Under the pieces are notes generated by a model that ran no database searches, was not told the origin of the DNA, and saw only the letters and a list, made by a program, of their open reading frames with translations. The position numbers were made by a program, and so were the translations under genes. From Sporocytophaga sp. (lineage in GTDB: Bacteria > Bacteroidota > Bacteroidia > Cytophagales > Cytophagaceae): a DNA stretch of 64,000 nt. The stretch lies in the NCBI RefSeq assembly GCF_017745095.1, contig NZ_JAGHZZ010000020.1, forward strand, positions 1 to 64,000. The letters are read 5' to 3'. This document shows, in pieces, positions 43,601 to 47,967 of the stretch (position 1 is the first letter of the stretch; each line of letters begins with the position of its first letter).

Positions 43601-45193
43601 TTAATATATCACAGACATTTTCAAAACTTCTTCTCCACTATTGATATTGATAAGATAGTAGCCTGCAGGTACTCTATGGTCATTTACATAACCATCCCAT
43701 AGTTTTGGAAGAGTTAATTGGCAGATCGTATTGCCAAATTTATCAACAACTTTAGCATTCCCAGTTTGAGAAAAATAATAGTTGTCATCTACACCATCAC
43801 CGTTAGGAGTAATAACGAGCTGCTTACAATCCTCTCTGGGAATTTCAATGGTATTGGGAATTGTATAACTACAGCCGTTTGGTGCGGATATAGTAAGTTT
43901 ATATTCCAGATCTTCGAGCTTTGCGAATTGACCAGATGCTGAAGAATACTTAGTATGTGTCTGCAATCCTTCTATATCAAATTTGTAATTGATACCTGGC
44001 TGATTGATCAAACTAATATTCACTGATCCTTGCTTTACACAGGTGTTTCCCGTTATGTCATAGATTACTCCGCTTATATTGACACAGGGAAGAACATCAA
44101 CATTAAAAGCATCTGTTCTAAGTTTAAGATTTGGGAAAGAAGGATGAGTTACCTCGCAATAATAATTGCCCTTGTCAGAAGGTCTTGCTTTGTCTATACT
44201 AAAAATTCTGGATGTTTGCCCAGTTACATTATTATTAAAGATCCACTTTCTTGATACTCCTGAAGTGTTCGAATCTATTTTTGAATCTAACGAAAATTTT
44301 TCAAGCTCTACTATAGTCTGCATTGTACCGACATTGAAGACTTTCTGAGGAGATAATTCAAACAATGAAGGATAATTGAGAAAAGCTGTTAATGGCAGTA
44401 AGTCCTGAAAGTTCAGGTAGTTTTTAAACAATCTTACCTTAGTAAGCGATTGATATGAAGTTAATGAAGGTAGCTCTGAAATAAGGTTACTATCCAGATA
44501 GACAGTTTGGATACCTAATGGTAAAGTCGGGAACTCTTCAATAAAGTTAGAGCTTGCGTCAAGAACTTTTAGACTATCCATTCCGGATAGATCCGGTAAT
44601 TGTTTTATTTTATTTCTGAAGCACTCCAGTTTCCTTAATTTAGGAAGATTAGTTAGGTCAGGAAGAGCAGTAATTCCAACCAAAGAAATTCCTAAATATT
44701 CAAGCTTTGGTAAATTTAAAGCAGGAATATTATCAAACTTGTTAGTGTGAACCAATAACTGAATCAGATTTTTATTATTGGTAAGGTCAGGGAATTGGGT
44801 GACATCTAAACGATGAATGGAAAGATATTGGAGGTTAATGAATGGCGATAAATCCGGTATAGTAGTCAGTTTGGTTTCTCCAATATTCAATTTAGTCAGC
44901 CCTGTCATAGCAGCTATATCTGGCAGAGTTATGATAGGGTTCTTAGTGATATTAAGTTCTGTAAGACCTGTGAAATATTTTAACTCATCGATTGTAGCAA
45001 TACCGTAATTAGGGCATTCCAGTTTTTTAACTGCCGCAGCTTTTGTCAATATTAAATTCTGATTAGCGTCAAGAGCAGTGGGAATACTATCAGCTATACA
45101 CTTTCTGAAAGCATTGTCTGCAATTGGTGTCTGGGCCATTGCTGCAGATATAGTAAAGATATAGATTGCCGCTATGTATTTAATGAAACTCAT
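43601..45193 (-). CDS. Secreted leucine-rich-repeat protein with type-B T9SS domain
   Basis: A 530-residue exported protein. A signal peptide (ending SAAMAQ, residue 21) is followed by short leucine-rich repeats from about 60 to 260 (pattern LTKLNIGETKLTTIPDLSPF), an Ig-like domain (about 285-365, including GNYYCEV), a second beta domain (370-450), and a C-terminal gliding-motility/CHU_C type-B sorting domain that starts at QLVITPNGDGVDDNYYF and ends in WDGYVN...VPAGYYLININ. Type-B CTD cargos usually need a PorP/SprF partner, and such a gene lies divergently at 47092. Its start overlaps the stop of the anti-sigma gene in an ATGA arrangement, so translation is probably coupled. Confidence 0.85.
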   Translation of the reverse strand: MSFIKYIAAIYIFTISAAMAQTPIADNAFRKCIADSIPTALDANQNLILTKAAAVKKLECPNYGIATIDELKYFTGLTELNITKNPIITLPDIAAMTGLTKLNIGETKLTTIPDLSPFINLQYLSIHRLDVTQFPDLTNNKNLIQLLVHTNKFDNIPALNLPKLEYLGISLVGITALPDLTNLPKLRKLECFRNKIKQLPDLSGMDSLKVLDASSNFIEEFPTLPLGIQTVYLDSNLISELPSLTSYQSLTKVRLFKNYLNFQDLLPLTAFLNYPSLFELSPQKVFNVGTMQTIVELEKFSLDSKIDSNTSGVSRKWIFNNNVTGQTSRIFSIDKARPSDKGNYYCEVTHPSFPNLKLRTDAFNVDVLPCVNISGVIYDITGNTCVKQGSVNISLINQPGINYKFDIEGLQTHTKYSSASGQFAKLEDLEYKLTISAPNGCSYTIPNTIEIPREDCKQLVITPNGDGVDDNYYFSQTGNAKVVDKFGNTICQLTLPKLWDGYVNDHRVPAGYYLININSGEEVLKMSVIY

Positions 45194-46305
45194 TCTGTTA
45201 CTGTAATACTTCCCTTGATAACCTTCCCGTCTCTATTTTCAATGATATAAATAAAATATCCCGATTCAAGTTTTCCTGACTCTGAGTATCCTGACCAAGT
45301 ACATTGTTCCCCATTTGTCATCTGTTTTGAATATACCTGATTACCTGTTTTGTCAATGATAGTCAGCTTTGAAGCCTGTGTAGCGATTGGGCCAAGCCAT
45401 TCTTCGCCTCGGCCAGGATTAAAATCATAATCAAGTTTGCAAACTTTTCCTTTTAAAATTAGGGGATTAAATTGATGTTTACAACCGTTATAGTCAGTAA
45501 CGTCTACTCTGTATGTCCCTTGATTTAAATCCCTGAAAATATTTTCATCCTCTGATCCTGAGCCATTAAGAGTTGTTTTATAAGGGGATGTACCGCCTTT
45601 AAAACCTTTAATTTCAATAACTCCATTGTTGCTGCCGTTACAAGGCTCCTGAACGATTAGTTGAGCTGAAATAACAACCCCTTCGCATTTATTAGCAGGT
45701 AGCGTAGCAAGATCAATTTTAGGTTCTGTTATTGAATTGGTAGTGTTATCTGCTTTTAGAGGATTTTCCTTAGGCGTTAATGACTGACCATAATCAATAA
45801 CATGAGTGATTGCAGTTGTATCTTCCTTAATTGTAGTAGGTTGATTATCAGTTTTTTTATCTGATATTTTAATGACTTTTGGAAGTTGTTCTGAATTTGT
45901 ATGTTTTATTTCACTGACCGGTTGCTGTATATTTGGGGTCCTTTCAGTAGAGACCATATTATTACTAATACGTTCTGATTTTTCAATTTCCGACGTCGAA
46001 TTATTTCTTATTAGCAAATAAGAACCAGAACCAATCAATGCTAACAATATCAGGAAGGCCCAACCTTTATTGAAGGGGCCACTTTGGTCAGCCTTAGTTT
46101 GCTCTTCAGCCATTATCGATTTCAAACCTTTAAGCTTATTCTGAAGAATAAGATCCTTTGCAGTTTTGCATACTTCCATTTTATGCTGTAGAGCACTATC
46201 GGATATAAGTTGTTCCTCAAACAATATTCTTTCATTTTCAGGGAGTAATCCTGAAAGGTATAGCTCAATTACCTCATATATATATTCATCATTGCTGCTA
46301 TACAT
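45190..46305 (-). CDS. Putative anti-sigma factor fused to SprB-like repeat and type-B CTD-like domain
   Basis: A 371-residue single-pass membrane protein. The N-terminal 80 residues (YIYEVIELYLSGLLPENERI, FEEQLISDSALQHKM) look like a helical anti-sigma domain; a TM helix follows at about 84-101. Past a low-complexity Thr/Ser/Lys linker, residues about 208-285 form a SprB-type repeat (EPCNGSNNGVIEIKGFKGGT, YRVDVTDYNGCKH), and the last 80 residues (WLGPIATQASKLTIIDKTGN through ESGYFIYIIENRDG) match the core of the T9SS type-B CTD. The gene overlaps the ECF sigma gene by eight bases and the LRR gene by four. A membrane anchor plus a cargo-like periplasmic domain suggests sensing of secretion state; that role is inference. 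Confidence 0.78.
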   Translation of the reverse strand: MYSSNDEYIYEVIELYLSGLLPENERILFEEQLISDSALQHKMEVCKTAKDLILQNKLKGLKSIMAEEQTKADQSGPFNKGWAFLILLALIGSGSYLLIRNNSTSEIEKSERISNNMVSTERTPNIQQPVSEIKHTNSEQLPKVIKISDKKTDNQPTTIKEDTTAITHVIDYGQSLTPKENPLKADNTTNSITEPKIDLATLPANKCEGVVISAQLIVQEPCNGSNNGVIEIKGFKGGTSPYKTTLNGSGSEDENIFRDLNQGTYRVDVTDYNGCKHQFNPLILKGKVCKLDYDFNPGRGEEWLGPIATQASKLTIIDKTGNQVYSKQMTNGEQCTWSGYSESGKLESGYFIYIIENRDGKVIKGSITVTE

Positions 46306-46882
46306 GACCTTTTAATTTTTGAATTATTAGAGGGTTATTTTCAATTTCTTTATATAATTTTTCTCTACATCTTTTTAGAGCCATTTTAGCTGCCCCCTCA
46401 GATTCCAATCCCATCCTGATCTGTATATCTTCCATCATTAGATTCTGATAAATGGTGTAGTTTAAAATTTCAATGCACTTACTACCGATTTGGGAGAACA
46501 ATTGGGAAAGGAGATTCTCTTCCATTGCTGCAGGATATATCTCTTGAAAATCAGCTTCTATGTTGTAGATGTTTTCTTCTGATTGAAAATCTACACTAAT
46601 CGATTTGTTACTCTTTCTCAGGCTATTGATCCATCTGTTAATACAAAGTGTAAAGAGAAATCCGTAAACTGTATATTTATCATTGTATTTACCTTCCAGG
46701 ATGTGTTTATATAAGTACATGACAGCATCCTGAAATACATCCTCAACATCTTCCTTCTTACCTCCTCGGTTTAAGATTGTCTTTTTTACCCTGGGATACA
46801 CCAATTTATAAAATAAAGAGATCACCTCTTTATCCTTCCCTTGTTTAATTAAGTCAGGAATATCCTTTTCAACAATCGCCAT
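46298..46882 (-). CDS. ECF-type RNA polymerase sigma factor
   Basis: A 194-residue sigma factor from the ATG at 46882; a TTG at 46891 adds three residues. Region 2 has DVEDVFQDAVMYLYKHILEG and YTVYGFLFTLCINRWINSLR; region 4 (about 120-185) has CIEILNYTIYQNLMMEDIQI followed by a helix-turn-helix with GAAKMALKRCREKL. It is the first gene of a three-gene operon with a membrane anti-sigma-like protein and a secreted LRR protein, and is divergent from a PorP/SprF gene. It probably drives its own operon and perhaps the PorP gene. Region 4.2 is divergent from well-known ECF classes. Confidence 0.87.
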   Translation of the reverse strand: MAIVEKDIPDLIKQGKDKEVISLFYKLVYPRVKKTILNRGGKKEDVEDVFQDAVMYLYKHILEGKYNDKYTVYGFLFTLCINRWINSLRKSNKSISVDFQSEENIYNIEADFQEIYPAAMEENLLSQLFSQIGSKCIEILNYTIYQNLMMEDIQIRMGLESEGAAKMALKRCREKLYKEIENNPLIIQKLKGHV

Positions 46883-47091
46883 ATTTGTCAAAATCTAAAC
46901 TGAAGACACACCGGATTCTCAATAGTAATGGAATTTTCAAGAAATTTTTTTTAATTTTTTATTCTCTCCAAGATTAATCTTTACGTTTTTTTTACCGTTA
47001 AAGACTATTTCAAATTGTACTTTGGAATTATAAATTAGGATTGCAGGATAGGATTTTCTATTATATTTGTCTGAATTTCACTTTAGTCTCG

Positions 47092-47967
47092 TTGAGGAAA
47101 TTACTTTCATCTTTTCTTTTTATTTTTAGCATAACTATTGTCTGCTACTCCCAACAGACCCAGAACTTTTATTTACCTGATTATTACTCTTCAACTGCAC
47201 TAGATCATTTAGCACTTATTAATCCGGCCTGGAGCGCCGATGAAACAAAGGGGACATTAAATAGTTTGTATAAATCAAGATCAGGACTTTTTAATGAAGT
47301 AGCTACTATTACTGCATATGGAGATGTTCTGCTAAATCCGAAAGGTAATGTGGGACAGATTGCGAGAGTATTGTTTCAGAATGAAAAAGAAGGGCCATAT
47401 ATATCATCTCCCAAATTTTATGGAAACTATGCAGTTAAGATACCTCTCAGAGAAGACCTCTTTCTGTCTGCAGGACTTGCCTTTGGTGTAGCTTCAATCA
47501 GCTTTACAGCTCCTTCAGGAATGGGGAAGGGTAGTGCGCCCGACGCCAATGCGGGTTTAATTCTAAAATATAGGAAGACAGAAATCGGAGCAGCCTCTTA
47601 CCAGCTTTTGAACAACAGTATTACTGCAATTAATAGCCCTTTATTATTTAAACGATTTTATCAGTTTTATTTTCAATCGGAAAAGGATCTGAGTGAGTAT
47701 CTAACTTTAAGAGCTCATTTATTCTATAGGCCTCAGCCATACAGAGACTTAGGGAATGCGGCGTTATTACTTTGTTATAAAGAAACGATTGCTATTGGTG
47801 GAATGTACCAGTACCAGAGAGGTACCTCATTTTTAGCATCTCTTTATCTTAATCAATCCAATAATCCGATAATTTTAAATTTCTCTTTTAATAGTCTATT
47901 CTTGAGTAACCGCCTTCTTACTAATGGTTCTTATGAACTCGGCCTTCAATACAGGATAGCCAATTGA
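47092..47967 (+). CDS. PorP/SprF-family T9SS outer-membrane protein
   Basis: A 291-residue protein from a TTG at 47092, which gives a proper signal peptide (MRKLLSSFLFIFSITIVCYSQ); the frame itself is open from another TTG at 47041 and has no early ATG. The family signature is present: YYSSTALDHLALINPAWSAD early in the mature protein, then alternating beta strands (KFYGNYAVKIPLREDLFLSAGLAFG, GLILKYRKTEIGAASYQLL) and a C-terminal LGLQYRI. PorP/SprF proteins anchor or help to export type-B-CTD proteins such as SprB. Its divergent position next to a type-B cargo gene and an ECF sigma factor suggests a dedicated secretion and regulation unit. Confidence 0.83.
   Translation: MRKLLSSFLFIFSITIVCYSQQTQNFYLPDYYSSTALDHLALINPAWSADETKGTLNSLYKSRSGLFNEVATITAYGDVLLNPKGNVGQIARVLFQNEKEGPYISSPKFYGNYAVKIPLREDLFLSAGLAFGVASISFTAPSGMGKGSAPDANAGLILKYRKTEIGAASYQLLNNSITAINSPLLFKRFYQFYFQSEKDLSEYLTLRAHLFYRPQPYRDLGNAALLLCYKETIAIGGMYQYQRGTSFLASLYLNQSNNPIILNFSFNSLFLSNRLLTNGSYELGLQYRIAN

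Follow-up and report, generated by a model that had tools for sequence, protein, structure and literature searches.

How Bacteroidota match the synthesis of a surface protein to the dedicated shuttle that delivers it is a question for which we found no account in the literature searched, and it is raised by a four-gene locus of Sporocytophaga sp. The locus occupies positions 43,601 to 47,967 of a 64,000-nucleotide stretch of DNA (the window; contig NZ_JAGHZZ010000020.1, positions 1 to 64,000). It encodes an extracytoplasmic function (ECF) sigma factor, a putative anti-sigma factor (ASF), a secreted leucine-rich repeat (LRR) protein bearing the type-B C-terminal domain (CTD-B) of cargo of the type IX secretion system (T9SS), and an outer-membrane protein of the PorP/SprF family. 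Profile comparison indicates that the ASF, a membrane protein, ends in a tail homologous to those of type-B cargo, from which the TPNGDG-type start is missing, and that sigma factor, ASF, cargo and PorP (together, the cassette) recur as a set. An earlier note on this DNA had proposed that such an anchor might bind PorP or the T9SS and report secretion status to the sigma factor, an interpretation that our analysis partly supports. The features concerned are these:

47041-47967, + strand: PorP/SprF-family outer-membrane protein, putative type-B shuttle; start codon uncertain.
46298-46891, - strand: ECF sigma factor; probable start an ATG at 46882, rather than an upstream TTG.
45190-46305, - strand: putative ASF, 371 residues, one internal transmembrane helix.
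46081-46305, - strand: ASF residues 1-75, helical anti-sigma-like domain (N-domain), taken as cytoplasmic; helices 9-17, 23-35 and 37-74 in the AlphaFold2 (AF2) model.
46000-46068, - strand: ASF residues 80-102, predicted transmembrane helix; AF2 helix 80-102, hydropathy peak from residue 81.
45688-45999, - strand: ASF residues 103-206, polar linker, predicted disordered; predicted local distance difference test (pLDDT) mostly 38-50.
45445-45687, - strand: ASF residues 207-287, SprB-like immunoglobulin-like (Ig) domain with conserved cysteines; a confident beta domain in AF2.
45193-45438, - strand: ASF residues 290-371, CTD-B-like domain without a P(N/D)xxG-type start; assigned from CHU_C, fold matches to the CTDs of PorZ and PorU, hhalign and the absence of the motif.
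43601-45193, - strand: secreted LRR cargo, 530 residues, with LRRs, Ig-like domains and a type-B CTD.
43604-43825, - strand: type-B CTD of the cargo with ITPNGDG, residues ~457-530.

The sigma and ASF genes overlap by 8 nt (46298-46305) and the ASF and cargo genes by 4 nt (45190-45193), while the PorP/SprF gene is divergent from the sigma gene; the open reading frame (ORF) coordinates thus bear out the arrangement given in the earlier note. The sigma factor matched TIGR02937 (sigma70-ECF) over its cut-off (E 2.3e-14) and Sigma70_r2 (PF04542; E 9.6e-8). PorP scored 72.2 bits with PF11751 (PorP_SprF; E 6.8e-20), whose cut-off is 22.3, and 64.7 bits with TIGR03519 (E 9.1e-18), under the 90.55 cut-off of that model. 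The LRR protein, which gave an AF2 model of mean pLDDT 92.4, matched LRR_4 (E 1e-16), and its claimed type-B CTD was upheld by the ITPNGDG motif and by CHU_C (21.9 bits, E 1.9e-4), TIGR04131 being a weak match (E 4.2e-5, cut-off 35 bits). The genome also carries the T9SS translocon gene sprA (PF14349, E 1.3e-154).

The likeness of the tail to that of a cargo was examined through profiles, motifs and folds. When the ASF tails were compared with the tails of the cassette cargos by profile-profile alignment (hhalign), a single comparison gave 99.5% over 156 columns spanning both domains (E 3.9e-22), which indicates that the ASF tail is homologous to type-B cargo tails across the Ig and the C-terminal domains. 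The window ASF itself scored 25.2 bits with CHU_C (PF13585; E 1.8e-5), just under the 27-bit cut-off, in the protein scan, and the same stretch scored 27.6 bits in the genome search; TIGR04131 was weak (E 0.032, 14.4 bits against a cut-off of 35). Its relatives, one of them 72% identical and encoded in a Sporocytophaga metagenome-assembled genome (L009, L-numbers being the labels of the collected loci), are clearer: at E <= 0.1, CHU_C was found in 44 of 52 ASFs (best 2.5e-10) and TIGR04131 in 35, and other ASFs of the window's genome reach 32-40 bits with CHU_C, several over the cut-off. The alignment of this domain with CTD-B, as the earlier note had claimed, therefore stands. So does the SprB-like repeat that it placed before the domain, since 38 of the 52 ASFs match SprB at E <= 0.1 (best 1.5e-5), the window ASF itself only at E 0.06. 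By fold, VIA-align (992 chains aligned) placed the CTD of PorZ in row 2 (Z 9.1, root-mean-square deviation 2.6, 84 residues), tied with MalQ, and that of PorU in row 4 (Z 8.8, root-mean-square deviation 2.4, 77 residues). Among the matches listed, Foldseek against the PDB gave no TM-score to the query above 0.23; most were adhesins rich in Ig domains, and the search was left unused for the tail. No type-B CTD structure has been solved, according to PMC12618676.

The tail differs from that of a cargo at its start. In the genome search seven of the eight ASFs listed entered the CHU_C profile only at position 14 or beyond, against positions 3-6 for the eight cassette cargos listed, which points to an ASF domain without the CTD-B start. 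The motif P[ND][GNADSE][DNST]G, adopted in place of a strict NG[DN]G pattern that turned out to be too restrictive, was present in none of 98 ASF tails and in 70 of 106 other CTD-B proteins of these loci. The absence of a TPNGDG-type start, noticed before in the window, is thus systematic among ASF tails. In a held-out test an ASF-tail profile outscored a cargo-tail profile on all 46 ASFs, whereas 41 of 54 other CTD-B proteins, a set in which L160 and L175 are truncated ASF tails, favoured the cargo profile; by this preference the ASF tails form a distinct subfamily. An FxP...W signature considered as a general mark of ASF tails was dropped, being present in only 53 of 98.

The remainder of the ASF was modelled with AF2 on an alignment of 52 ASFs (mean pLDDT 75.4, predicted template modelling score 0.42). 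Confidence in the N-domain is high (pLDDT >=90) to about residue 50 and ~70 over residues 50-70. An ECF sigma gene with an adjacent downstream gene for a single-pass protein with a helical N-domain is the layout found in the window and its relatives. Of the known anti-sigma models, NCBIfam NF052375 ('anti-sigma factor') matched 13 of the 52 ASFs (best E 2.5e-4), the window ASF not among them, and zf-HC2 matched three (best E 0.039). Foldseek against the PDB and VIA returned no N-domain match among the matches listed, which is not evidence against the N-domain. Nor is the layout that of an N-terminal Sec signal peptide, because an N-domain of ~75 residues precedes the sole hydrophobic helix (80-102), a judgement made with no signal-peptide program run. 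The cysteines lie almost entirely beyond the helix, with a mean of 4.0 after it and 0.1 before. Across 88 ASFs the linker varies little in length, with a median of 103 residues (5-95% range 92-117, full range 87-132), and it measures 102 residues in L161, an ASF that has no Ig domain. At 0.34 nm per residue its contour length comes by arithmetic to ~35 nm, which suffices to cross a periplasm, and the ASF linker could reach the outer membrane.

If this architecture reflects a function tied to PorP and cargo, is the gene set kept together? The window's genome alone holds 11 near-full-length ASFs, the window's included. Where 53 ASFs were read with their surroundings, a sigma gene adjoined 51 under a narrow overlap limit and a wider limit added L070 and L091; a divergent PorP gene lay within 600 nt of the sigma gene in 47 loci; and 45 of the 52 downstream ORFs found were similar to the window's LRR protein. 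Among 98 pairs of a sigma factor and an N-domain, 88 ASFs carried the CTD-like domain; within 5 kb, 86 of these had PorP and 83 a CTD-B cargo, and for 84 the PorP was no more than 1 kb away. A uniform recount of 97 ASFs with N-domain, adjacent sigma factor and CTD-like tail found PorP within 1 kb in 90 and within 5 kb in 94. The three misses were L147, whose contig begins ~380 bases before the sigma ORF, L157, on a 3.7-kb contig, and L235. By comparison, eight CTD-less ASFs with the same N-domain had no PorP or cargo that we could find within 5 kb, a small group chosen by N-domain matches. The gene set recurs far more than by chance, and the earlier claim that it is conserved together is sustained; as read from sequence, the architecture and conservation of the cassette are firm.

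Several loci stand outside the recount of 97: L143, with its ASF at a contig start and no PorP seen; L175, whose N-terminus lies off the contig and which has PorP; L150 and L181, where the N-domain was undetected and sigma factor and PorP are present; the 209-residue tail ORF L160; the split ASFs L129 and L179, both with PorP; the cargo or edge fragments L147, L123 and L083; and L224, split, on a 3.3-kb locus. L049, L241 and L242, which have no CTD, and L233 and L234, which are of a PKD type unmatched by the ASF-tail profile, were told apart from it. The scans at the level of phylum, class and order scored at most 5, 7 and 12 candidates per genome, respectively, so the counts are no measure of absence elsewhere.

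The 11 PorPs that lie beside ASFs in the window's genome, the window's own among them, are the 11 lowest-scoring of its 31 over-cut-off PorP genes. SprF is tied to the gliding track by a CxC motif (PMC12635249), which was absent from the last 40 residues of all 81 cassette PorPs. The Ig domain was not found in eight of the 97 ASFs (L161, L174, L176, L177, L178, L180, L235 and L236), all of which keep the CTD-like domain and seven of which have PorP.

How might these parts work together? The type-B cargos tested in F. johnsoniae require cognate PorP/SprF shuttles, and mutating any one of the five motifs of the SprB CTD stops secretion (PMC12618676). We infer the first of the five to be TPNGDG, and a tail with the CTD core but without that first motif could bind without being exported, a combination that argues for a cargo decoy. 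On balance we think it probable, if modestly so, that the cassette is a sigma/anti-sigma switch spanning the envelope, in which such a decoy reports whether a type-B T9SS shuttle, PorP, is loaded. The N-domain would hold the sigma factor at the inner membrane, and the linker would let the tail reach the outer membrane and dock as cargo decoy on the PorP encoded next to it, whether PorP stands alone or at the T9SS channel. A vacant PorP would capture the tail, upon which the ASF would be inactivated, probably by proteolysis, and the sigma factor released to transcribe sigma factor, ASF and cargo from its own promoter; newly exported cargo would then fill PorP, displace the tail and close the loop. 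Docking and capture could also run with the opposite sign. In general terms the ASF tail may bind PorP or the T9SS and report secretion status, and the cell could by means of the cassette sense the delivery of its own surface proteins. A bolder form of this idea, which we consider rather unlikely, has the T9SS take up the tail, which PorP then holds at the outer membrane while the N-domain is still cytoplasmic, such that one chain of ~370 residues would run from sigma factor to cell surface and tether tension or displacement would report shuttle occupancy or surface contact to transcription.

The supposed autoregulation can be approached through the intergenic region, which carries one further feature:

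46904-46930, - strand: ECF-like promoter motif upstream of the sigma gene, CATTACTATTG at 46920-46930 (-35-like) plus TGTCT at 46904-46908.

Among homologous intergenic regions of at least 100 nt (76 of the 79 extracted), GTTACY, GTTTACY or CATTACY occurred on the sigma side in 50, against a shuffle mean of 7.1 and a maximum of 15 in 200 shuffles, and in the PorP direction in 6, against a shuffle mean of 8.1. The idea that this sigma factor also controls PorP was accordingly discarded, and the pattern suggests that the sigma factor drives sigma factor, ASF and cargo, and not PorP. We take the enrichment as supportive only, because the motif was picked after inspection and orthologous regions are not independent.

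The same N-domain is found beside sigma genes elsewhere with TPR, TonB_C or unrecognised tails, which, like the NF052375 matches, lends indirect support to its putative binding of the sigma factor. At L187 (1033-2100) and L206 (1501-2562) the protein next to the sigma gene has a TonB_C match in its tail (E 1.7e-3, below the cut-off, and 1.4e-10, over it, respectively), so that contact with the outer membrane is conceivable there too. L233 (1674-3062) and L234 (6041-7519), from another family outside the window's order, join the anti-sigma N-domain to a transmembrane helix, a pair of PKD domains and CHU_C over its cut-off (31.7 and 36.4 bits), beside a sigma gene. Their CHU_C domains begin with a motif of the SP(D/N)G type, the 11.0 and 9.6 kb read showed no PorP, and an anti-sigma domain and CTD-B seem to have been joined independently in these two. 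Proteins of 762-957 residues with the same N-domain stand beside sigma genes at L238 (6085-8373) and L239 (4494-7367 and 10856-13195); a CTD-like tail was not found in these, which are possibly another sensor class. At L049 (7683-12057, in the window's own genome), L241 and L242, sigma factor, CTD-less Ig ASF, type-B cargo and PorP all lie in one direction; the L049 cargo bears RCC1 repeats and its PorP scores 245 bits, far over the cassette PorPs (<=128). All four genes also run in one direction, as PorP, cargo, sigma factor and ASF, at L232, outside the window's order. In genome G003 the ASF gene is split into two ORFs at L129, L179 and L224, by decay or assembly error.

A number of results weigh against a PorP-reading decoy. 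The partial correlation between PorP and the CTD-like domain of the ASF in a mirror-tree analysis of 70 complete cassettes was only 0.05, compared with 0.28 for the ASF Ig domain, 0.33 for the cargo CTD and 0.34 for the sigma factor; whole cassettes are inherited together, which makes their parts co-vary, and the analysis gives direct co-evolution of the ASF CTD with PorP no support. A linker of ~100 residues is seen by eye in some CTD-less ASFs as well (L162-L164) and is therefore not peculiar to the CTD type. The strict NG[DN]G is absent from many cassette cargos too, being present in 36 of 82, and MalQ, which is no T9SS protein, equals PorZ in the fold comparison. At L235 (8326-9870) a sigma factor and a CTD-tailed, Ig-less ASF were accompanied by no PorP or cargo that we could find in the 17 kb read, and neither sigma factor nor PorP was found in the 17 kb around the CTD-like tail ORF of L160 (209 residues). 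Conversely, the ASF that accompanies PorP and cargo at L049, L241 and L242 has an Ig domain but lacks the CTD.

Could the signal come from the environment rather than from cargo supply? FecI/FecR/FecA combines an outer-membrane barrel, an inner-membrane anti-sigma factor with a periplasmic tail and an ECF sigma factor. By analogy, the LRR cargo seated on PorP would bind an external ligand, the periplasmic side of PorP would change and the ASF tail would read that change. The 11 paralogous cassettes of one genome, most with divergent LRR cargos, do resemble a sensor set, and the cassette PorPs, having no CxC, may be static receptors. We nevertheless hold this unlikely: no FecR or TonB-receptor family was matched in the four window proteins (the four Pfam families with listed ASF matches at E <= 1 do not include FecR), no ligand is known, the barrel here is a PorP and the tail a putative cargo mimic, and the likeness of that tail to the cargo tail is left unexplained.

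The common CTD-B core kept in the ASF tail would also suit a general sensor of T9SS jamming or periplasmic cargo overload, in which the tail would bind the translocon or chaperones that every CTD cargo uses and an unexported backlog would compete with it; an ECF sigma factor, SigP, controls T9SS genes in P. gingivalis (PMC7712824). Such a sensor should lower cargo synthesis, yet the cargo usually sits in the sigma operon, and 11 cassettes each with its own PorP favour a dedicated partner, which makes this distinctly improbable. We give a similarly small place to the idea that an anti-sigma gene once fused to the tail of the neighbouring cargo, which now survives as an ordinary periplasmic module unlinked to PorP or the T9SS. 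The mirror-tree result, the loss of the first motif and the lack of a PorP found near L235 are as a domain-shuffling relic would have them; retention of PorP within 5 kb in 94 of 97 loci, loss of Ig with the CTD-like domain kept in eight of 97, and the joining of an anti-sigma N-domain with PKD and CHU_C in another lineage (L233, L234) are not.

Were the cargo-decoy switch correct, a sigma factor with a built-in decoy would directly answer the question of how synthesis is matched to shuttle, and the window's genome would run 11 parallel, possibly insulated channels of this kind. The cassettes are in addition a test bed for CTD-PorP specificity, since in each of them a barrel comes with both a cargo tail and a decoy tail.

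The earlier note had taken the design to be undescribed. This holds for the tail, as we found no anti-sigma factor with a T9SS CTD or tail among the matches listed in the open-licence PMC literature searched, but not for the disordered tether and outer-membrane end, which are published for Dma (PMC13088901). Pairs of type-B CTD cargo and PorP/SprF shuttle are described in F. johnsoniae and P. gingivalis (PMC12618676, PMC9143113), the cargo in F. johnsoniae likewise lying beside a PorP-family gene; the present loci add a sigma factor and a putative inner-membrane anchor that ends in a CTD-like tail, has an internal transmembrane helix and is no normal cargo. In P. gingivalis, PorA, a CTD protein of the cell surface, likewise acts on an ECF sigma factor with a link to the T9SS, but it works through the two-component system PorXY and SigP, and no CTD-bearing anti-sigma factor is described in the available text (PMC7712824). 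The nearest likeness is to Dma/Das of Bacteroides thetaiotaomicron, dual membrane-spanning anti-sigma/sigma pairs (PMC13088901), which share with the cassette an ECF sigma factor and an ASF composed of an N-terminal anti-sigma domain (compared by layout only), one transmembrane helix, a long disordered tether and a C-terminal part at, or here possibly reaching, the outer membrane. Dma ends in its own beta-barrel, whereas the window ASF ends in an Ig-like domain and a predicted T9SS CTD-like beta-sandwich; PorP, the barrel here, has a gene of its own, and a type-B cargo usually lies in the sigma operon. The cassette would thus be, in effect, a Dma-like design with the barrel split off as PorP and docking by a cargo-like tail, and if so, a T9SS-coupled class joins the trans-envelope anti-sigma factors.

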